From positions 1-35,575 of IMG/VR virus record IMGVR_UViG_3300005253_000481: 35,575 nt of DNA; one strand, 5' to 3'. Positions within the stretch are counted from its first letter, which is position 1; every line of letters starts with the position of its first letter. Position numbers and translations under genes: made by a program. This DNA is from a virus. This document shows, piece after piece, positions 3,396-25,281 of the stretch. The notes under the pieces were generated by a model, which saw nothing but the letters and a program-made list of their open reading frames with translations, made no database searches and had not been told where the DNA came from.

Positions 3396-3425
3396 AGGTC
3401 TGTTCTGGATGGCGGGCTATATTGG

Positions 3426-3602
3426 CTCTAACGGTGCTCTAACGGGGCTCTAACGGTGCTCTAACACCCTGTGGTTATCTGGATAGAACGGGCGTTTTAT
3501 GCTCTCTACGGGGCTCTAACAGCCGGGGTTGCCCCGCTCTCCGACCGTGCTCTAACGGCCCTCTAACGGTGCTCTTACGGGCTTCTAACGGCTCTCTAAC
3601 AC
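3426..3602 (+). repeat. 11-bp iteron array, candidate replication origin
   Basis: The core CTCTAACGG (variants CTCTAACAC, CTCTAACAG, CTCTTACGG, TTCTAACGG) starts at 3426, 3437, 3448 and 3459, again at 3514, then at 3550, 3561, 3572, 3583 and 3594. Within each block the period is exactly 11 bp, close to one helical turn, so bound proteins would line up on one face. Inverted copies of the core occur at 3389-3395 and 3643-3649. Phased iterons in a divergent intergenic region are typical of origins or of clustered operators. No initiator protein binding this motif can be named. Confidence 0.7.
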
Positions 3603-4056
3603 CCAGGCCCGATTAAAACACCTGTTCGGTTCTTACATACTTGTTAGAGCCTACTTCGCTCCCGGAGTGAAACGCCCGTTCTAATATTGGGAATCTCCTA
3701 AACTCTACGCGCGGTTTCGGGGTGTGCTTCCAGGGGACCCGTTCGCGCCAACCGAGGACACCGCCGTCGTCCCCTCGCGCGTCGCGCCCACGTCCCGCGC
3801 TCCCGCGACACGCGCGAACGCGAGCCGGAGGCTCCGGGTCGCCCCGTCGGGTCGCTCTCGCGGGTCGCGCGCGCTTTGCAGGCTTGCTCGCGCCCACCAC
3901 GCAAGCGCCGTGACACGGGCGGCGTGCGCCTCACGCGGCGGGGCCGCGCACGACGGAGGGGTTGCGCCCCAGCCCCGGCTGTGGTAACCTGGGGACGGAC
4001 CAGCAGAGCGAGGTCGGTCACCCGTCCGGCCCGCCAGCAGCGAAAGGAGGCCAGTA
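3603..4056. other. Long intergenic region, AT-richer start then very GC-rich
   Basis: No convincing gene. Bases 3603-3720 are moderately AT-rich and carry one inverted CTCTAAC core. Bases 3720-3960 are extremely GC-rich with many CGCG runs and short palindromes, for example CCGGAGGCTCCGG at 3825-3837. Open frames on both strands here have no plausible ribosome site and read as low-complexity Arg/Ala/Pro. A weak promoter lies at 3962-3990 and the 5' leader of the first early gene follows. Confidence 0.6.
3962..3990 (+). promoter_or_regulatory. Probable promoter of the first early operon
   Basis: TTGCGC, a 17-bp spacer, then TAACCT followed by GGGG. It is weaker than the other early promoters but has the same trailing GG and lies about 60 bases upstream of the first rightward gene. 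Confidence 0.35.
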
Positions 4057-13382: not shown

Positions 13383-13529
13383 CCCGGCGCATGGGGGAGC
13401 GGGACCTGCCGACTATAGCAGGCCAGCGGGTCCTGTTCCCCCTCCCATGGGGGAGTGGGGACTGCCTCAGGCTTCATGGCGGATCCTCCAGGTCGTCTCC
13501 ACCCCCCTCCTCACCAGGGAGAATTGAAT
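13383..13529 (+). other. Structured spacer with a direct repeat
   Basis: A 147-base gap in a tight operon. CATGGGGGAGCGGGACCTGCC at 13390 recurs imperfectly at 13446, and the CATGGG / CCCATG arms also allow a long hairpin around the inner stem CCTGC/GCAGG (13405-13422). The end holds the ribosome site for the nuclease gene. No coding frame with a ribosome site is seen. Possibly an mRNA processing or attenuation element. Confidence 0.4.
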
Positions 13530-14594
13530 ATGCTGAAAGTCAGGACCACAGAGCGACGGACATTCAAAAGGTGCCGCCGAAAGTGGCAGTATAGCTACGT
13601 CGAGGGGCTAGAGCCAATCCGCCGCAGTTCACCCCTGTGGGTCGGCACCGCCGTCCACAATGGATTGGAAGCCTATTACCTGCAGCACCCTCCAGACCCC
13701 GCCCGTGCCATGGAAGCCATAAACCGCTTTTTCTTCATGGAACGCCAGCGTCTTGGCTACAACCAGATGGACGGGGCGGACCGCGACGCGTTCAACGAAG
13801 ACGCGGAGTTGGCCTTGGGGATGCTCAACCACTATCTCAAATGGGCTCCCAAGTACGATGATTTCGAGGTTGTCGAGACGGAGTTCTATGCCGAGGTGCC
13901 CCTAGCCAAGGGAATCCGCCTTACACTCCGCGCCGACGGCCTGTTGATTGATAAGAGCAACGATGCGTGGCTATTCGAACACAAGACCACAGCGCAGATT
14001 GACCAGGAGGCTGCATGGTTGGAGCTTGACGATCAAGCCAGTACCTATACCTGGATGTTCGGCCAGCTGGCCGAGGGCAAGGGCTGGGTATTGCGTGATG
14101 GCAAGCTTGTGCCGATCGCCCAAGTCGGTCCGCCGCCCCAAATCCGGGGTATGCTCTACAACTTCCTCCTCAAGCAGGTCCCACACGAACCGATCGTAAA
14201 CAAGGACGGCACCCTATCTGTAGCCTCCAAGAATCTCACCTGCACAGCGGAGGACTATGAGGCCGCGTTCAAGGGTTCGCCTGGACAGGGGGACGCCAAG
14301 TACGAGGACTTCATCCAGAAACTCCGGGCCAAGAAGTGGTTCCACAGGCTAAAGGTCTACCGGAGCAGCGCGGAGATGGATAGGTTTATGCCCGCTGTGG
14401 AGGCCGAGATTTCCGAAATGGAAGAAGCTCGTGCTCGCCCAATCCTCGCCTACCGCAACCCCACAAAGGACTGTCAGTGGGATTGCGCATTTATGGTGAT
14501 GTGCAAAGGCGAACTAGAGGGCCTGGATATGGAGGCCGAGCGAGAGGAGAAGTTTATCGTAGAGAAGCAACTAGAGTTGCTGGAGGTCGAATGA
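13530..14594 (+). CDS. RecB/Cas4-like nuclease with probable Fe-S cluster
   Basis: Encodes 354 residues; I start at ATG 13530 because AGGGAGAA lies just upstream. The PD-(D/E)XK core has GTAVHNGLEAYY (His43), LTLRADGLL (Asp136) and WLFEHKTT (Glu150, Lys152). Cys15 plus C-terminal Cys315, Cys319 and Cys325 (CQWDCAFMVMC) match the four-cysteine [4Fe-4S] staple of Cas4/AddB nucleases. It likely makes single-stranded ends for recombination with the Sak4-like ATPase and the DUF669-type protein that follow, a usual phage trio. Confidence 0.85.
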   Translation: MLKVRTTERRTFKRCRRKWQYSYVEGLEPIRRSSPLWVGTAVHNGLEAYYLQHPPDPARAMEAINRFFFMERQRLGYNQMDGADRDAFNEDAELALGMLNHYLKWAPKYDDFEVVETEFYAEVPLAKGIRLTLRADGLLIDKSNDAWLFEHKTTAQIDQEAAWLELDDQASTYTWMFGQLAEGKGWVLRDGKLVPIAQVGPPPQIRGMLYNFLLKQVPHEPIVNKDGTLSVASKNLTCTAEDYEAAFKGSPGQGDAKYEDFIQKLRAKKWFHRLKVYRSSAEMDRFMPAVEAEISEMEEARARPILAYRNPTKDCQWDCAFMVMCKGELEGLDMEAEREEKFIVEKQLELLEVE

Positions 14595-14788
14595 CCTGCG
14601 GCATAGTCGGCGCACACCGACACCAGCGGACGAAGCGACTACTTCGGAAGCTGTTCAATAAATACACACCTAAGGAGAAAACGGATGGCTCATCCGAAAA
14701 TCCATGTTGCCGGAGACGTACTGCCCCCGCTAAACATGCTCCTGTACGGTCCAAACGGAGCAGGCAAGACCCACTTCGCGGGGACTAG
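14591..14788 (+). CDS. Doubtful small basic ORF
   Basis: ATG 14591 overlaps the nuclease stop (ATGA), giving 65 residues, strongly basic at the start (HRHQRTKRLLRKLFNKY). But its second half lies in another frame over the first 100 bases of the next gene, and it shows no fold. It could be a short coupled peptide or an untranslated frame. Confidence 0.25.
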   Translation: MTCGIVGAHRHQRTKRLLRKLFNKYTPKEKTDGSSENPCCRRRTAPAKHAPVRSKRSRQDPLRGD

Positions 14789-15467
14789 CGGCGGACTCTT
14801 TATCAACGTAGAGCAGGGTGAGACAACCCTCGTCTCCGCCCATATAAAGGTCCCTGTTTGGGACATAACGGAGTTCGATGAGTGGGAGGAGGTCTATGAT
14901 CATCTAGTCGCGCACCCTAAAGAGTACCCCTGCGTGACCATAGACTCCTATACAGACCTCGCGGCCAAGTGCTTAGAATCGGTAATCGACGAGGCTGAGA
15001 CACGGGATGGAAACCGGCTCACCGACGCTGCCGAGTTGCGGGACCATGGGCGTGTGACGCTTAAGCTGGGCAAGGTACTGCGCCGCTTCCGGGACCTGCC
15101 TATACCGGTCATTCTCATCTGTGGGGTGCGGGATCCCGACGACCAGGATCGGCGCTACCGTCCTAGCCTCCCCGCCAGCATCAGCCGTCAGGCTCGCGAC
15201 TACATGGATATGATCGGCTATATGAGCGTGGTCGAGGAAGAGGACGACAAAGAGAACATTACGCAGTACCGAAAGCTCCGTTTCTATTCTCCATCCGGAG
15301 TTATCGTCTGCAAGGACCGAAACGGCGTATTCACGATGGAGACAGGCAGACAGGGGGTGACCGATACTGACTTTCCAGGACTGATACAGTTCCTCAAAGA
15401 CAATGCGCCAAAGGAAGAAAAGAAAACGCCAGCCAAGTCTAAGCGATCCGTACGCAAACCCAAGTGA
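14685..15467 (+). CDS. Sak4-like RecA-fold ATPase, recombinase/annealing protein
   Basis: Encodes 260 residues. Walker A is GPNGAGKT (22-29) and Walker B is CVTIDS (83-88), the AAA_24/Sak4 layout. ATG 14685 has AAGGAGAAAACGG upstream. Sak4 proteins are small RecA-like ATPases that help strand annealing together with an SSB-like partner, which would be the next gene. The C-terminus is lysine-rich (KRSVRKPK). Acts in recombination-dependent replication and repair. Confidence 0.82.
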   Translation: MAHPKIHVAGDVLPPLNMLLYGPNGAGKTHFAGTSGGLFINVEQGETTLVSAHIKVPVWDITEFDEWEEVYDHLVAHPKEYPCVTIDSYTDLAAKCLESVIDEAETRDGNRLTDAAELRDHGRVTLKLGKVLRRFRDLPIPVILICGVRDPDDQDRRYRPSLPASISRQARDYMDMIGYMSVVEEEDDKENITQYRKLRFYSPSGVIVCKDRNGVFTMETGRQGVTDTDFPGLIQFLKDNAPKEEKKTPAKSKRSVRKPK

Positions 15468-16098: not shown

Positions 16099-17976
16099 AT
16101 GGCGCACCCCGAAGAGCGCCGGTTTTTTGACTGGCTGCGTGAGCACAGCCCGCAAGCTGGGTTACTTTACATCCTCGCCAAGGATCGGGAGGGTAAAGTA
16201 ACCCAGTATTGGTATACAGGGGGTACGGAACCGGAGATAGATGCATTACGAGAGGACCACCATGTGTGGGTGGGACTCACCCGATATGGAAAGCGGAAAG
16301 CCACCAAAACGAACGTCCTGCCTACACGAATGGTGTGGATCGATCACGATGGACCTGACGCTAATCCGTACGATTGGGACCCACGGCCTCATGTAGTGAT
16401 TCAAACCTCGGAGGGCCGGTTCCAGGCTGTGTGGCTCTTAGCCGAAGCTGTATCCAAAGAGGAAACCGAGCAGCTATGCGCAGGACTAGCACAGAGATTC
16501 GGGGCCGATCCTTCCGATAAGGATATCACACAGGTCCACAGGGTGCCAGGGACGTTCAACCTCAAGCATGACCCACCTTACCCCGTCAAGCTCCTGTGGC
16601 TTGAGGAGGAGGACAAGACCGCCCCCTACCAGCCGGAGGACCTACGGATTGCCGTACCGGTCACCCCCGTAACTCCCGTCGAAACTCCCGGCCTACCCGA
16701 TGGGGGTACGAGAGAACACGCCCTATACCTACTGGGCCAGCTTCAAGTGCCGACTGACACTGTGGCCGAGGGATTCATCAAGGAACAGGAAGACCGGTCA
16801 GCTGCTCTGTACAGTCTGGTGGCCTCCGTCCTAGAAAAAGGCGGATCCCCCAAGGACGCTTATAACATCGCTTCCCACAGCGCCAATCAGAAGTTCGATA
16901 CACCGGAGCGCCTGTGGGAGGACATTCTACGGACCATACCCAAGATTCACGCCACAGGAGGGCAAAGATGGACGACACACCACATATCAAACCTGGAAGG
17001 GGTGGACGATGAGGTGTTGTGGATCGTAAGTCCATACTTGTACTCGGACGCGGTGGGGACGGTGGTAGGTGAACCTTCCTCTCGCAAAAGCTGGGCTATC
17101 CTTCAACTCTTAACGGCGATTGCCTGTCCGGAGGCAACTCAGTTTTGGGGTCAGCCGGTTTTGATACATGGCCCCGTTCTTTACTTCAACTTAGACGACC
17201 GCAGGGCACGGCGATTGAAACTCCGACTAGGTAACATCCTTGCGTACTACAGGGACGGAAACCGGTCCCTAGATATCCCGTTTGAATGGGCGGATTCCGG
17301 GCTAAATTACAACGTGAGGGAGTGGAAACGCTGGCTGGCGGAGGACCTAGACCGAATGGAACAGACCTATGGGCAACCGGTCGTGCTAACGGTTGTGGAC
17401 ACCATGCACAAAGCCGGATTTGATCCGAAAGATTGGGGCGCGGGTAGTCAGGTGTTCTTGGATGGCCTAACGGATCTAGCCATCAGTCGCAAGACTGCTT
17501 TCATGATTGTCCACCATACAGCCAAGTCAGCCGCATCAAGACCGGACAACATCCGCATATCGCCCTGGGGTTCCGTGTTCACAGGGGCATCGCTGGATCC
17601 CGCATGGCGATTGACACGTCAAACCTCCGCGGATAAAGAGGACCGAGAACACCACCACATAGAGTTGGAGTATGCCAGCAAAGAGGGTCCAGAATCGCTA
17701 GACCCATTAGCTCTAATCTATGGTAAGGACACCAGCAAATTCGAAATCCAGGTGGAAGCGGCCAGCCTGGAGAGGAAGATACTGCATCAGCTAAAGATCG
17801 CGGAAGAGACTATCAGCCAAGCAGAGTTGGCCCGCCGGGTAGAGACAACTGACATACAGGTTCACCGTGTGGTCTCGAACCTGGAGAAGAAAGGGCAGGT
17901 GGTTACGAAGAAGATGGGCGCAGCAAAGATGGTCATGCTTCCCGGAACCAAGGAAGATCAACAGAGTGAGTTCTAA
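16099..17976 (+). CDS. Primase-polymerase fused to RepA-type helicase
   Basis: Encodes 625 residues. The N-terminal PrimPol-like domain has WIDHDG (80-85, metal-binding acids), VVIQTSEGRFQAVWLL and TQVHRVPGTFNLK. A helical linker (about 200-290) leads to a RecA-fold ATPase: GEPSSRKS (324-331) as a divergent Walker A, VVDT (432-435) as Walker B, and VHHTAK (471-476). Residues 565-620 form a winged helix. This is the replicative primase-helicase of the phage. The start has no clear ribosome site, so it may depend on translation of the gene 12 bases upstream. Confidence 0.85.
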   Translation: MAHPEERRFFDWLREHSPQAGLLYILAKDREGKVTQYWYTGGTEPEIDALREDHHVWVGLTRYGKRKATKTNVLPTRMVWIDHDGPDANPYDWDPRPHVVIQTSEGRFQAVWLLAEAVSKEETEQLCAGLAQRFGADPSDKDITQVHRVPGTFNLKHDPPYPVKLLWLEEEDKTAPYQPEDLRIAVPVTPVTPVETPGLPDGGTREHALYLLGQLQVPTDTVAEGFIKEQEDRSAALYSLVASVLEKGGSPKDAYNIASHSANQKFDTPERLWEDILRTIPKIHATGGQRWTTHHISNLEGVDDEVLWIVSPYLYSDAVGTVVGEPSSRKSWAILQLLTAIACPEATQFWGQPVLIHGPVLYFNLDDRRARRLKLRLGNILAYYRDGNRSLDIPFEWADSGLNYNVREWKRWLAEDLDRMEQTYGQPVVLTVVDTMHKAGFDPKDWGAGSQVFLDGLTDLAISRKTAFMIVHHTAKSAASRPDNIRISPWGSVFTGASLDPAWRLTRQTSADKEDREHHHIELEYASKEGPESLDPLALIYGKDTSKFEIQVEAASLERKILHQLKIAEETISQAELARRVETTDIQVHRVVSNLEKKGQVVTKKMGAAKMVMLPGTKEDQQSEF

Positions 17977-18313: not shown

Positions 18314-18518
18314 GTGGCACAATCCATACAAAACGGTTCTACCGAACGGATGCTGGTTCTTATACTGGACTAGCGCTCACCTGATTGGATTTTGGGCACA
18401 ACACGGTGCCAACCGTGAGGCACGTCGTTTCTTCCCTGGTAACGTACCTAGCGGTGACATAGTGCAATGGGTACTAGCCTGCCATAAACGCGCCCCGTGT
18501 GAGATGCCGAATTGCTAA
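18300..18518 (+). CDS. Hypothetical protein, 72 residues
   Basis: Begins inside the previous gene and ends seven bases into the polymerase gene. Tryptophan-rich (NGCWFLYWTSAHLIGFW) and ends with CHKRAPCEMPNC, a possible metal site. No known family; its tight fit between neighbours supports it. Confidence 0.58.
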   Translation: MDLNKWHNPYKTVLPNGCWFLYWTSAHLIGFWAQHGANREARRFFPGNVPSGDIVQWVLACHKRAPCEMPNC

Positions 18519-20359
18519 TAACCTCCCCTGACCAGCTTCGGGACGTGGTGGCTTCTCTGGCCCGCCACCCCGCTGTGGCGTTTGACTTGGAGACAGACGG
18601 CCTTTACCCGGCTGAGGGCAACCGGATGTGTATGGCTTCTATGTACCACCCCGCCGAAGGTGCCTTCTCAGTTGCGTGGCGAATGCATGGTGCGGTGCCG
18701 AATCTGCCAGAGAAATCCATCAAGCTGCTACAGCCCCTACTGGACACCGAATTGGTGGGGCATAACATTGGTTCCTTCGACCTTCTCTTTCTCCTGGCTG
18801 AGGGCCTGGATCTTACCAATGCCCGTGTGTGGGACACGCTCAATGGCGCTCTTCTTTTCAACGACAGTCTCGCGGGGTACAAGCTTAGCGTCTTATGCAC
18901 CTTACTCCTCAACGACGATGGGATGGAACGATCTGCCCGTAAATGGGAGAAGTGGCGTGAGGGCTTCAAGGGCAAGGATGGCTTCGCACCCCACACGCCA
19001 TTAGAGATTATCCAACCTAAAGCCGAAGACGATGTAGCCTTTGCATGGCGACTGCGAGAGTTTTTGGAGCCTAGAATCCTAGCGCGAGGTGACCCCTACC
19101 CTCGCCTTCTCAAACAAGAGATGGAATGGGCTATCTTCCTAGGGGAGCTACAATGGGAGGGGATAGGATTTGATATTGAGTTGGCAGAGAAGCTCTTAGA
19201 TTGGGCACGCCACCGGCAGGTGGAAATCCAAAAGAGCTTTTGGGACGAGTGGCGACCTGGGTTACTACTTACCTCTCCGACCCAGTTGATGCGCTACTTC
19301 ACTGAGTTCCATAAGATGGACATCCCTAATACAGAGGACTGGATACTTCGGATGTTCTCCAAGGGGAATCCTGACGCCGCTGCCGCTGTGGAACGGGTCT
19401 TGGAGCACCGCCTGTGGAGCAAGACCTCAGACACGTTCCTGGAATCCCGGAGTAAGAGAGGCTGGTTGCAGTCGGCGCGACGGGGAAACGGACGAGTACG
19501 GGCCAGTTGGGGTACAGACGCCTCCACGGGGAGGAAGCGAGGATCGGGATTCACCCGAACCTTACGGCTCCGATGTTCGCAGCCAAATCTGCAACAGGTT
19601 CCGACAGACGACGAGCGCTACCACTTGCGCTCTCTATTTATGGCGGGAGGGGACAATGAGCTTGCTGGATACGATATTTCTCAAGCTGAGGTTCGACTCG
19701 TAGCGCACTATGCTAACGAAACCCGCATGCTCGATGAACTACGCAGCCGTGAGGGTGACATTCATGCGATGGTCTGTCGCAGTCTTGGTTGGGATCCCAA
19801 TAACCCCAAGGAAAAATATCGAGCTAAACGGATCGATTTAGGTACGATCTATAGCATTGGACGTTCGCATCTGGCGCAGGTCCTCACGGAAGAACTCCTA
19901 GAATGGGTTGATGAGGCCGATACAGACAAGTGGCTTAAAGACTATCGACGGAAGTATCCTAAGATCCAATGGATAAGCCGGAAGGCCGAACGAACGATCG
20001 TAGAACGGGGTCACCTTGTCTTGTGGAACGGACGACGAATCTATTTCAACCCTGATCGAGACGAAGCTCATAAGGCGCTTAATCTTCTCATTCAAACGGG
20101 CGTGGCTGAGATCATCAAAGAGGGCATCCTCAAGACGAGAGCCATATTCAAAAAAGAGGGGATGAAGACCCGCATTGTTCACCAGTTGCATGACGAGATC
20201 ATGACTGAGGGGCCTAAAGATGAATTAGAGTACATGCCAGAAATCCAGAAGATGCTAGAGGCTATAGGGCCGGAAGGAGGCTGGCGATGTCCGCTGTTTG
20301 TTAATTCCTGGCACCGGAAACGATGGGGTAAGGAACTACCACAGGAGGTGACTATATGA
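18512..20359 (+). CDS. dpoZ: Family A DNA polymerase with 3'-5' exonuclease (DpoZ type by context)
   Basis: Encodes 615 residues from a TTG start at 18512. Exonuclease motifs: FDLETDG (Asp25, Glu27), HNIGSFD (Asn85, Asp90) and AEDDVAFAW (Asp173/174). Polymerase motif A is GYDISQAEVR (Asp388), motif B is YRAKRIDLGTIYSIGR (Lys439, Tyr447), and motif C is QLHDEI (560-562). No 5'-nuclease domain. In motif B, Leu443 stands where E. coli Pol I has Phe762, and Ser448 replaces the following Gly. Next to purZ, this is most likely the DpoZ clade polymerase that copies and proofreads Z-containing DNA; the clade assignment is inferred from context. Confidence 0.88.
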   Translation: MLITSPDQLRDVVASLARHPAVAFDLETDGLYPAEGNRMCMASMYHPAEGAFSVAWRMHGAVPNLPEKSIKLLQPLLDTELVGHNIGSFDLLFLLAEGLDLTNARVWDTLNGALLFNDSLAGYKLSVLCTLLLNDDGMERSARKWEKWREGFKGKDGFAPHTPLEIIQPKAEDDVAFAWRLREFLEPRILARGDPYPRLLKQEMEWAIFLGELQWEGIGFDIELAEKLLDWARHRQVEIQKSFWDEWRPGLLLTSPTQLMRYFTEFHKMDIPNTEDWILRMFSKGNPDAAAAVERVLEHRLWSKTSDTFLESRSKRGWLQSARRGNGRVRASWGTDASTGRKRGSGFTRTLRLRCSQPNLQQVPTDDERYHLRSLFMAGGDNELAGYDISQAEVRLVAHYANETRMLDELRSREGDIHAMVCRSLGWDPNNPKEKYRAKRIDLGTIYSIGRSHLAQVLTEELLEWVDEADTDKWLKDYRRKYPKIQWISRKAERTIVERGHLVLWNGRRIYFNPDRDEAHKALNLLIQTGVAEIIKEGILKTRAIFKKEGMKTRIVHQLHDEIMTEGPKDELEYMPEIQKMLEAIGPEGGWRCPLFVNSWHRKRWGKELPQEVTI

Positions 20360-20586
20360 ATAGAGGTGAGGCCCTGGAACGGGTAGTAGCTGATTTAAAC
20401 GATGCGCAGGCTCAGTTCCCTACGATGCGCAGTATGCATCAAGCTTATGCAATACTCCTAGAGGAGGTAGACGAGCTTTGGACTGAAATTAAGAAGAAAC
20501 CGGACCAGCGACACTATCTCCGAGTACGCCAGGAAGCGTCTCAGATCGCAGCGACGGCACTTCGACTTATGATCGATCTAACATAG
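20356..20586 (+). CDS. Short MazG-like nucleotide pyrophosphohydrolase, possible MazZ
   Basis: Encodes 76 residues, coupled to the polymerase gene by ATGA. Helical, with LLEEVDELWTEI (Glu37, Glu40) and RQEASQIAATALRLMIDL (Glu60, Gln63, Asp74), the all-alpha NTP pyrophosphatase pattern. Usual MazG enzymes have ExxD in the second motif; here it reads ExxQ. Position between the polymerase and purZ suggests the MazZ role, converting dGTP to dGMP, the substrate of PurZ. It is short for a MazG enzyme and could be specific to another nucleotide. Confidence 0.65.
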   Translation: MNRGEALERVVADLNDAQAQFPTMRSMHQAYAILLEEVDELWTEIKKKPDQRHYLRVRQEASQIAATALRLMIDLT

Positions 20587-20596
20587 GAGGACACAA

Positions 20597-21631
20597 ATGA
20601 TAACGATTGTGATAGGTGGTCAGACAGGAAGCGAAGGAAAGGGTTCTTTCGTAGCATGGTTAACCGATCCTCGACGACAAGAAGGCAAGCTGTTGGTGAT
20701 TCGCACAGGAGGGGCCAATGCTGGTCATTCTATGAAACTCCCGGACGGGACGGTGTTCAAGGCCCGCCATGTTCCTTGCGCGATCAATAACAGACGTGCG
20801 ATTTTGGCGCTCGGTCCTGGCGCTGTGGTCGATCCGGACTACCTGCTCAATGAAGAACTTCCATGGCTGAGGAGCGTCGGATACGACGTGAAAGGTCGAT
20901 TCTATATTGACCCGATGTGCGCTATCATAGAGCAGAAGCACCGCGACTTAGTGCGGCCCGACTTCGGGACAACCAAAAAGGGCGTGGCCGGGGCCACCGC
21001 CGATAGGGTCCTGCGTACGGGAAAGATTGCCCGCGACATATCTGCACTCTATCCTTACCTCGCGGACGTAGCCGATCTTGCCAACGGCTTAGATAGTCGT
21101 GGAGACGACATTCTCATAGAGACGGCACAGGGGTTCGGGCTCAGTCTCACCCGGTCGGGGCACTATCCTTATTGTACCAGTCGGGATGTGACGCCAGGAG
21201 CCGCCCTGAACGATGCAGGCGTTCCGCTAGCCGGACCGATACAGACTATCCTGGTCTTGCGCACCCATCCCATCCGTGTGGCCGGTAATTCTGGACCCCT
21301 TCGATTTGAGGTCACATGGGATAAGCTAAAGGAAGAGAGCGGAGGATATATCCAGCCCGAATACACCACGGTGACCAATAGGCTCCGCCGTGTGGGGCGA
21401 TGGGATCCGGAGTTGGCCAGGGCTGCTGTGGCAGCATGCCGACCCGATCACATCGTCCTAACGTTCTTCGATTACTGGCGTCCCGACTTAGCCAATAAAA
21501 CTGTCCTCGATCCCGATGCCTTCCGTAGAATCCATGAAGTAGAGGAAGAACTAGGAGTTCCCGTTACTTGGGTTTCCACTGGTTTCGGTTCGATCATCCA
21601 CATGGAAGAGAATGAGTACGGAGGAAGCTAG
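20597..21631 (+). CDS. purZ: PurZ, 2-aminodeoxyadenylosuccinate synthase
   Basis: Encodes 344 residues behind AGGAGGACACAA. PurZ joins dGMP and aspartate, using a nucleotide triphosphate, to start synthesis of dZTP (2-aminoadenine). The PurA fold is clear: GGQTGSEGKGS (6-17), GGANAGHSM with His44, FGTTKKGV (123-130), ETAQGFG (175-181), TSRDVTPG (194-201) and NRLRRVGRWD (261-270). The residue equal to the catalytic Asp13 of PurA is Ser12 (GSEGKG, not GDEGKG). That change is the known mark of PurZ, because it makes room for the guanine 2-amino group. It is also shorter than bacterial PurA (about 430). Order polymerase, MazG-like, purZ supports a Z genome. Confidence 0.92.
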   Translation: MITIVIGGQTGSEGKGSFVAWLTDPRRQEGKLLVIRTGGANAGHSMKLPDGTVFKARHVPCAINNRRAILALGPGAVVDPDYLLNEELPWLRSVGYDVKGRFYIDPMCAIIEQKHRDLVRPDFGTTKKGVAGATADRVLRTGKIARDISALYPYLADVADLANGLDSRGDDILIETAQGFGLSLTRSGHYPYCTSRDVTPGAALNDAGVPLAGPIQTILVLRTHPIRVAGNSGPLRFEVTWDKLKEESGGYIQPEYTTVTNRLRRVGRWDPELARAAVAACRPDHIVLTFFDYWRPDLANKTVLDPDAFRRIHEVEEELGVPVTWVSTGFGSIIHMEENEYGGS

Positions 21632-22062
21632 TGTTCGTGTACCTCGCCGGTCCCATCAAAAAGGACGTGCAGGAGAACAAGGTCTATCGCGCCCGCGCCA
21701 CCAAATATCTTCAAGACCTGGGAATCGACGTATACGATCCTGCCGCAGCCTGGGCAGGAGGTACCAAAGCTTACGCCTCTTCCCACTCGGTGGCTCTCAT
21801 TAACTTACTAGCTGTAAAGCAGTCTGCCGCAGTACTGGCCCACTACTATGCCGATTCTACTGGGACTAACATGGAAGTAGGATATACGCTAGCGTTTGAT
21901 AAGCCTGTGGTTATGTGGGGAAACGGGCTGATAGAGGCCACAAGTGCCATGCTCAGGCACCCACAGATTCACAGGTACGATAGGCTGGAAGAGGCGCTGG
22001 CTAGCGTGGCCATGCTGCTACTAGGCCCCGGCTCTAGATCACCACGGGAGTCACAGGAGTAA
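21631..22062 (+). CDS. Nucleoside 2-deoxyribosyltransferase-like enzyme
   Basis: Encodes 143 residues from GTG 21631, overlapping the purZ stop. The fold is shown by FVYLAGPI (2-9), YDPAAAW, and ADSTGTNMEVGYTLAFDKPV with the catalytic Glu82. Family members swap or hydrolyse the base of deoxynucleosides or deoxynucleotides (for example DNPH1 removes 5-hydroxymethyluracil from dUMP forms). Here it could destroy dAMP or recycle bases to favour Z; that is inference. It is the last gene of the operon, before the convergent terminator. Confidence 0.75.
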   Translation: MFVYLAGPIKKDVQENKVYRARATKYLQDLGIDVYDPAAAWAGGTKAYASSHSVALINLLAVKQSAAVLAHYYADSTGTNMEVGYTLAFDKPVVMWGNGLIEATSAMLRHPQIHRYDRLEEALASVAMLLLGPGSRSPRESQE

Positions 22063-22074
22063 ATGGGAGATAAA

Positions 22075-22104
22075 CCCCACCTCTCCGGAGCAGGGGAGAG
22101 GGGC
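22075..22104. terminator. Convergent terminator between early and late operons
   Basis: CCTCTCC (22080-22086) pairs with GGAGAGG (22095-22101), with CCCC before and GG after adding pairs around a one-base bulge. Lies 12 bases after the plus-strand operon end and about 30 bases from the minus-strand operon end. The minus strand continues GTTTAT; the plus strand is only moderately T-rich. Probably stops transcription both ways. Confidence 0.6.
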
Positions 22105-23310: not shown

Positions 23311-25281
23311 TTAAACGGCGATGAGCTTCCCTGCCTTGAACTCACCGTTGGCAACAGACTCCGTGCCAAACTGCACTAGGTATATCTTGCCATCCGTGAG
23401 GGACAAGGCGCTGGACCGTAGGCGTGTATATGAAGTTGCCGCAGTACTAAGCCCTGAGTCAGCGACAACGGTTGCGTCAGTGTCATTGTAAAGCCGTGCC
23501 CGAACCGTACCCGCTATTGCCTTGAGGTAGACCTCCAGGAAAAACTCTACTGCGGCGTTCCAGTTTGCTGCTGTGTAGAGGAACGGACCTCCATAAGAAG
23601 TGTACGCGATGACCCCGCCGACCGTAACTGTTGGTGCAAACTCGGTGAGGAGTAGAGCCAACGTTGTCGGGGTAACCAATCGCGGTGCAGCAACAGTGGG
23701 AGCGAATGTGGAAAGATTCAGGGCGAGCGTTGTTGGAACAATGACGACCCCTATCTCAATGGTAGGGGCAAACTTGGTCAATACTAGGGCCAGCGTTGGT
23801 GGTATAACAAGCCGTGGCGTGGCAACGGTGGGCGCGAACGCGGCCAGGGTTAGGGCCAGTGTTGAGGGGGTAACGACTACATTACCAGTCGCCGTGACGG
23901 TTGGCGCGAACTCGGAAAGAATCAGCGCAAGGACTGGGGGCGTAACAAGCTGATTCTCGGTAGCCGTTGCTGTCGGCGCGAAGGTGGCTAACGTCAGGGC
24001 CAGGGTCGGGGGCGTGACAAGCCGGTTAGCAGTGGCGGTTACAGTTGGCGCGAACTCAGAAAGGATTAGAGCTAAGGTTGACGGTGTGACAAGTCGGGGT
24101 GTCGTAACCGTTGGGGCGAACTCAGAAAGGATTAGAGCTAGAGTCGTTGGGGTGACGGTGATTCCCCCGCCCGCCGTGTAGGTGCAGTAGATGGAAAATC
24201 TGGGGGTGCTCCAAGCTGTTTGGGCATAGGGGTCAGGCCAACCATCGTAAGCCTGGTCATCATAGTAAGTGGTTCCACCACTTGCGTCGTACCACAGCTC
24301 GTCCTCGCCGCTAGGCCAGAACGCTAAGTCATAATCCGTTGCAGTGATGGCCCCCCCTGAAATAATGTCCAGTGTCTTCCAATCGTCGTAGGCACTTGTT
24401 ACAGTCCACTCTTCTGTATCGCCTACCAGTGACTTGTCAGAGTTCTTGTAAAGTGCGTACTTGATGTTTCCGCTTGTAACCTTGGCGAAAACTGCTGCCG
24501 TCATGCTGGTCACTGTCCCCGCCTCAGAAGCCGCGAATTTGCCGGCCTGGATGTAGTTAGCGGTGCCGATAGTCCCTGAACTTCCTTTGGTCGTATAACC
24601 GAAGGTTGGGTCAATGCTGACAGGATAGGACGCAGCGTCTAGCCAACCCTGGTCAATAGTGATTGCCAGAGTGCCCGCTTGTTCGTCTATGCTCAATGCC
24701 GCCCAGGTCTCCTTACCTACGGCGTCCGTCACCCTTGGTCGGTAGATGTGGAACGCCTTTCCAACCTTGTATTTGGCGGCCTCGGCTTCGCTGGGGTGCA
24801 TGTTCCCCCTGGTGGCATGGTAGACGGCATAGGAGCCAACTACCTTCTCAGGGCGACTGACACCTGCATCCACTTCTTGTTGAGTCAGCGGTGGTTGGTA
24901 GAGGAACTTGAGCAGCTTGCTCTGGATGGAGAAGGATATGACGTTGCTGGTGGGCTTGGAGAGCAGTACGACCTCAAGCTCGAACGCACCGTTGTCCACG
25001 CCGAAGCCCTGTGCGTAGAAATGGGCCTCACGGTCGCCCTTGGCCCAGACGACCTTCTCCTTGTCTACGGCCAGAGTCGCCTGACCGGGAGCCGCGTCCA
25101 AGAGCCGGATGGAGAAGTTGGCCTCGTTGCCCCAGCGTTTGATCTTGACCTGGGGCTCGAAGTTGGCCAGCTTGATGTCGCCGACCTCCACCTCCGGCTC
25201 CTTGTCCTTCGAGATGAAGGTATTGGATAGGAAGTCGAAGTCGGCCCGTATCTCAGGCGACAGGACTATCTTCTTGGGCAC
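23311..25281 (-). CDS. Virion/tail protein with eight TLAL...FAPTV repeats
   Basis: Encodes 656 residues. Residues 1-220 form a beta-rich domain; 220-375 look like a carbohydrate-binding-type jelly roll (KYALYKNSDKSLVGDTEEW region); residues about 378-555 hold eight repeats of 20-24 residues with consensus TPTTLALILSEFAPTV; the last 100 form another beta domain. The product is probably a tail-tip or fibre adhesin that binds the host surface. Repeats may act as a spacer stalk. No chaperone or enzyme motif seen. Confidence 0.65.
   Translation of the reverse strand: MPKKIVLSPEIRADFDFLSNTFISKDKEPEVEVGDIKLANFEPQVKIKRWGNEANFSIRLLDAAPGQATLAVDKEKVVWAKGDREAHFYAQGFGVDNGAFELEVVLLSKPTSNVISFSIQSKLLKFLYQPPLTQQEVDAGVSRPEKVVGSYAVYHATRGNMHPSEAEAAKYKVGKAFHIYRPRVTDAVGKETWAALSIDEQAGTLAITIDQGWLDAASYPVSIDPTFGYTTKGSSGTIGTANYIQAGKFAASEAGTVTSMTAAVFAKVTSGNIKYALYKNSDKSLVGDTEEWTVTSAYDDWKTLDIISGGAITATDYDLAFWPSGEDELWYDASGGTTYYDDQAYDGWPDPYAQTAWSTPRFSIYCTYTAGGGITVTPTTLALILSEFAPTVTTPRLVTPSTLALILSEFAPTVTATANRLVTPPTLALTLATFAPTATATENQLVTPPVLALILSEFAPTVTATGNVVVTPSTLALTLAAFAPTVATPRLVIPPTLALVLTKFAPTIEIGVVIVPTTLALNLSTFAPTVAAPRLVTPTTLALLLTEFAPTVTVGGVIAYTSYGGPFLYTAANWNAAVEFFLEVYLKAIAGTVRARLYNDTDATVVADSGLSTAATSYTRLRSSALSLTDGKIYLVQFGTESVANGEFKAGKLIAV
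23620..24180 (-). repeat. Tandem coding repeats, about 66 bp each
   Basis: Eight degenerate direct repeats within the adhesin-like gene. Two neighbouring copies share an identical 25-bp block (24050-24074 and 24116-24140), exactly 66 bp apart, so at least one duplication is recent. Repeat number may vary between relatives. Confidence 0.75.

Follow-up and report, generated by a model that had tools for sequence, protein, structure and literature searches.

A PurZ-type synthetase gene outside the named PurZ groups in a probable 2-aminoadenine nucleotide operon of an uncultured phage

A purZ-like gene in the DNA of an uncultured phage raises the question of whether this virus makes nucleotides of 2-aminoadenine (Z) and, if so, how much of the adenine in its genome they replace. 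The gene is carried by IMG/VR record IMGVR_UViG_3300005253_000481, the whole of which (35,575 bases, hereafter the window) was analysed. From the evidence set out below, it is probable that the gene encodes a PurZ-type synthetase placed beside PurZ0, that it belongs to a Z-nucleotide operon, and that Z takes the place of much or all of the A.

Because neither a portal gene nor end repeats were found on the 35,575-base contig, it is probably a fragment. No match was obtained when phage records were searched with the window at the DNA level, and a scan of viral contigs with its PolA and terminase peptides returned nothing. The plus strand encodes a PD-(D/E)XK exonuclease (13455–14594; PHROG 1218, E = 1.2e-55), a Sak4-like recombination ATPase (14685–15467; PHROG 124, E = 2.3e-33) and, as part of a replication module upstream of the purZ operon, a RepB-type primase domain and AAA_25 helicase-like protein (16099–17976). 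The terminase, capsid, holin, and endolysin genes are on the opposite strand. Beside the last two, at 23311–25281 on the minus strand, is the gene for a protein of 656 aa in which a 24-residue repeat occurs about six times (a 72-base period in the DNA), and for which PHROG gave no match. An 11-base tandem unit of the CTCTAACGGTG type forms two clusters at positions 3404–3604, where the small terminase gene, pointing left, gives way to the genes that point right; they are near a GC-skew switch and iteron-like, and are possibly a candidate replication origin.

The purZ-like gene (20597–21631, plus strand) is an ORF of 344 codons with no internal stop. It begins with ATG, and an AGGAGG ribosome-binding site can be read a few bases 5′ of it (20585–20590, plus strand). 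Its product, a predicted 2-amino-2′-deoxyadenylosuccinate synthetase acting on dGMP, aspartate and an NTP, matched the Pfam family Adenylsucc_synt (E = 4.7e-37) and PHROG 1211, the phage PurZ family annotated as “2-aminooxy adenylosuccinate synthetase” (E = 4.9e-61); its best match by sequence in the PDB (E = 1e-52) was PurA of the archaeon Pyrococcus, an IMP enzyme. PADLOC did not match the protein. The AlphaFold2 model, for which 40 relatives were aligned, had a mean pLDDT of 94, and its best structural match was again Pyrococcus PurA (Z = 45.2, rmsd 1.7, 325 residues), PurZ0 (7VF6) giving Z = 43.8 and rmsd 2.0 over 330 residues. Since the Pfam, PHROG, and PDB matches agree with a full-length fit of the model, the resemblance is not one of chance. 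The modelled fold can be considered sure, yet the fold alone cannot tell PurA from PurZ. With Pyrococcus PurA as the top match by both sequence and structure, the protein could also be an adenylosuccinate synthetase of archaeal type, one that has kept IMP as its substrate and increases the adenine supply, its serine having arisen independently, and here the residues are decisive.

An earlier note on this DNA had reported GSEGKGS where adenylosuccinate synthetases carry GDEGKGK, and had described the other motifs of the fold as intact. Both readings hold, the synthetase motif being GDEGKG(K/S), as the 344-aa ORF contains Ser12 within GQTGSEGKGS as well as His44, GTT (124–126), AQG (177–179), and RR (264–265). 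In PurA, the aspartate replaced by this serine (Asp13) is essential (PMC12884076). Of the archaeal PurA rows in the tree set, 39 have a residue at that position, and in every one it is Asp. Further residues were compared in an alignment of 150 proteins. The window protein has the PurZ-type loop insertion (PIRVAGNSGPLRFEVTW / AGNSGPLRFEVTW; pattern PIRVAGNSGPL..E.TW), where the archaeal PurA rows read TRVG.GPF.TE, and in the aspartate loop it has Thr257 (S-2L position 273), where archaeal PurA has Gly. The insertion and Thr257, together with the loss of Asp13, argue against an IMP-using archaeal-type enzyme, which we regard as very improbable. The residues that surround dGMP in the PurZ of phage S-2L are conserved except at two positions: Thr125 replaces a Ser, and Thr10 takes the place of an aromatic residue (S-2L position 21). 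The energy donor is recognised by its base, and at the residue responsible the window protein has Asp292, as do PurZ0 and GTP-using PurA, whereas the S-2L and phiVC8 enzymes, which are ATP users (PMC8342488), have Gln or Asn. Because of Asp292, GTP is the predicted donor, and an assay limited to ATP or dATP, such as the earlier note had proposed, may miss the activity. It should be mentioned that PMC12884076 in one place gives the ATP and GTP preferences of PurZ0 and PurZ in the reverse of its own introduction.

An alignment-based PurZ scan yielded 80 loci; a scan with a single PurZ sequence yielded nothing. In an IQ-TREE phylogeny of 73 proteins, the window protein grouped with that of locus L008 (support 100/94), those of L009 and L016 joined them loosely (94/75), and this set was sister to PurZ0 (96/91). 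The window protein fell outside the PurZ0 clade (100/99), outside the PurZ clade of S-2L and phiVC8 (100/99), and outside archaeal PurA (100/100). The comparison with the PurZ and PurA families that the earlier note had suggested is thus favourable in the tree itself, which sets archaeal PurA apart and the window protein beside PurZ0, but AU tests leave a grouping with archaeal PurA allowed (p = 0.081); a grouping with the PurZ side was likewise not formally rejected (p = 0.058). Of the NCBIfam models, that for archaeal PurA gave 231.4 of the 368 bits required and that for PurZ (NF038379) gave 196.8 of 300, both below cut-off, the latter cut-off being a naming threshold and not a biochemical one. 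The higher PurA score and the AU value are what the archaeal-type reading can draw on, besides the Pyrococcus matches. The residues tip the balance towards a PurZ in the broad sense, its exact branch being less sure; most likely, as judged from sequence, it is a PurZ-type enzyme of a lineage outside the two named groups, PurZ0 and PurZ.

The earlier note had also treated the change from Asp to Ser as the known mark of PurZ, and in this it went too far. A scan of genome contigs detected about 27 chromosomal PurZ relatives of bacteria and archaea that carry GSEGKGK, three of them with Gly instead, so that the Ser motif is not diagnostic alone and Z genomes cannot be called from it. No organism with such a chromosomal relative is known to have a Z genome. 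The AGNSG-type insertion is present in most of these proteins, and a dCTP-deaminase-like gene was near the PurZ-like gene at 24 of the 33 loci examined, mostly within 50 bases. The operon order is conserved among these chromosomal loci (L092, L094, L098, L105, L106, L116, L122, L131, L145, L149, L158, and others), with RNase_H_2 and a kinase-like gene upstream, the deaminase-like gene adjoining and, in nine, a deoxynucleoside kinase. Neither the PurZ-like nor the deaminase-like proteins were matched by PADLOC; the operon is possibly a cellular 2-aminoadenine nucleotide system or a defence system. Having the serine and the insertion in common with this family, the window protein might be one of its members, producing its nucleotide for some purpose other than a Z genome, as the conserved operon with the deaminase-like protein would suggest. 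Such membership is most unlikely, even more so than the archaeal-type reading, as the window protein falls outside that group in the tree, has NAGH like phage PurZ where the chromosomal proteins mostly have NSGH, differs from them in its donor-site residues, and is encoded in a phage replication operon.

That operon has the order polA, a 76-aa ORF, purZ, and a nucleoside deoxyribosyltransferase (NDT) family gene, all tightly packed. The polA stop overlaps the start of the 76-aa gene, 10 bases separate the latter from purZ, and the NDT gene has a GTG start that overlaps the stop codon of purZ. AGGAGG sites precede the 76-aa gene and purZ, and GGAGG precedes the NDT gene. A GC-rich, terminator-like inverted repeat can be read at 22075–22103, between this operon and the convergent one with the lysis genes. 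The overlapping ORFs, the AGGAGG-type sites and the terminator-like hairpin together indicate that the four genes form one operon.

The NDT family protein (21631–22062, plus strand; 143 aa; PF05014, E = 6.4e-12) retains the equivalents of Tyr6, Asn77, and Glu103 and the Pro. At the position of DmtZ Asp12, the loss of which abolishes DmtZ activity (PMC12884076), it has Lys10, whereas nearly all of its relatives have Asp. In an NDT tree it grouped, weakly (91/29), with the NDT of the 7-deazaguanine cluster of Aminobacter phage Erebus and not with DmtZ. PADLOC gave no match for it. Its position is DmtZ-like, and it is not clearly a DmtZ. Lys also occupies the Asp12 position in the NDT of locus L057. 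NDT genes were present at 37 of the 52 loci on the PurZ0 side for which 2.5 kb or more downstream of purZ was available.

Upstream of purZ, the earlier note had placed a family A polymerase and a MazG-like gene. The former is indeed there: a family A DNA polymerase with a 3′-5′ exonuclease domain and a TTG start (18512–20359, plus strand; PF00476, E = 3.4e-42; PF01612, E = 3.9e-9). The MazG-like description is less secure, as the 76-aa ORF (20356–20586, plus strand) was matched by no Pfam family above cut-off, the contig gave no hit when searched for MazG families, and profile searches of the PDB detected no sequence relatives. Its family is widespread among phages, and invariant in it are His28, Glu36, Glu37, Glu40, Glu60, Gln63, and Arg70. 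Of the metal motif ExxE...ExxD, the first half is present as EEVDE, while across the family (alignment of 40) the second half is ExxQ, within EASQ. The AlphaFold2 model consists of three helices (pLDDT 97.9), and its fold matches comprised both MazG and HisE proteins (for MazG, a Z of up to 6.9) and helical hairpins unrelated to them. The modelled fold is compatible with MazG/HisE enzymes, no proof of that function, and the protein is best described as a candidate minimal dNTP pyrophosphohydrolase. Its PHROG matches differ from those of S-2L MazZ. Among the PurZ loci with PolA that we examined, only the window has the 76-aa gene directly after polA, and no purZ was near the family's relatives at the loci examined.

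From the family, residues, tree, and gene order, we infer the following pathway. The PurZ-type synthetase would join dGMP to aspartate, probably at the expense of GTP, yielding N6-succino-2-amino-dAMP, which the host PurB and kinases would convert to dZTP. The 76-aa MazG-like protein may, as a guess, free dGMP from dGTP and perhaps lower dATP, and the NDT family protein, equally as a guess, might remove dAMP or salvage the Z base. Z would then replace much or all of the A in virion DNA, as in known Z phages, with a different set of helpers. We consider synthesis of the Z nucleotide by this phage to be likely, with good confidence; that A is fully replaced is plausible, being somewhat more likely than not.

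The doubt about full replacement comes from the partner genes. Known Z phages have, in addition to PurZ, either a means of removing dATP (DatZ, DutZ or DUF5664) or the polymerase DpoZ. No dUTPase (DutZ), DUF5664, DatZ-type HD domain, or DatZ/MazZ match was found on the 35.6-kb contig, which is probably a fragment. A dUTPase homologue was present at 50 of the 52 PurZ0-side loci mentioned above and in 11 of the 12 nearest record-level relatives, the exception being L057, which has DUF5664 and an NDT and no dUTPase near purZ; in the literature, dutZ is reported in 98 of 98 PurZ0 genomes (PMC12884076). The polymerase scored 108.5 of 500 bits with the DpoZ_1 model of NCBIfam and 28.2 of 350 with DpoZ_2, both below cut-off, and higher with plain Pol I than with DpoZ_1. 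Its helix O retains a Tyr that is Phe in both described DpoZ groups (F459 in phiVC8; PMC8599892). The earlier claim that the phage replaces all A therefore requires more than PurZ, as none of the named dATP-removing genes was found on the contig and the polymerase fails both DpoZ models.

These same observations would favour a phage that makes the Z nucleotide and yet replaces A only in part, for want of DatZ or DutZ and of a Z-selective polymerase. We think this unlikely, though less so than either of the alternatives above. The 76-aa MazG-like protein or the NDT could clear dATP or dAMP, a missing gene may be located outside the fragmentary contig, and the helix-O Tyr is also found in many phages with a clear PurZ. 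As a marker of Z use, the Tyr/Phe difference was rejected, because only about one-third of the polymerases that were aligned from PurZ-type loci have Phe, and the rest mostly Tyr; with so many of them retaining Tyr, Phe is not general to purZ-linked polymerases. PolA proteins that keep the Tyr were seen beside purZ at L002, L018, L028, L031, L034, L037, L047, L069, L070, L072, L078, and others. The 76-aa protein may act in place of DutZ. It is even possible, though we offer it tentatively, that the window represents a third route to a Z genome, in which the synthetase comes from a lineage distinct from both PurZ and PurZ0, the dNTP pools are controlled by the 76-aa MazG-like protein and an NDT other than DmtZ instead of DutZ or DatZ, and a polymerase belonging to neither DpoZ group copies the DNA.

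That DNA can contain Z is not a new finding; in such DNA one of the basic letters of the genome is exchanged, and many restriction enzymes are unable to cut it. What is new here is most likely a purZ branch outside the two described groups, accompanied by unusual helper genes. Two enzyme sets have been described so far, and a deep lineage with compact, different helpers would show how few parts suffice, as well as how the pathway originated between archaeal PurA and phage PurZ.

The chemistry of PurZ, DutZ, and DmtZ has been described (PMC8342488; PMC12884076), and the window can be set against these systems. The nearest named phage proteins are PurZ0s, with about 34–36% identity. With the PurZ0 of Arthrobacter phages and of the Gordonia phages Archimedes and Ghobes (about 30–36% identity; PDB 7VF6; PMC12884076), the window protein has in common the Ser for Asp13, the AGNSG insertion, the TTVT loop, the donor-base Asp, a PolA upstream, and an NDT family gene nearby. 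Unlike them, it is outside the PurZ0 clade, its contig has no dutZ, and its operon includes the 76-aa MazG-like gene and an NDT lacking the Asp12 of DmtZ. The PurZ of S-2L, phiVC8, and SH-Ab 15497 (PDB 7ODX and 6FM1; PMC8342488) is alike in predicted reaction, in the Ser23 equivalent and in the dGMP pocket; it stands apart in the tree, and the window differs in having Asp292 in place of Gln or Asn, no DatZ, and a MazG-like gene that is not recognisably MazZ. PurA of Pyrococcus horikoshii (PDB 5K7X and 2D7U) has the same compact fold and 37–39% identity, but is an IMP enzyme that retains Asp13 and the loop Gly and has no AGNSG insertion. Finally, DmtZ of Ghobes and Wayne (PMC12884076) resembles the window NDT in family, in the Tyr/Asn/Glu triad, in the Pro57 equivalent and in adjoining purZ, and differs in having Asp12 where the window NDT has Lys10, the Erebus NDT being nearer to the latter in the tree, albeit weakly.
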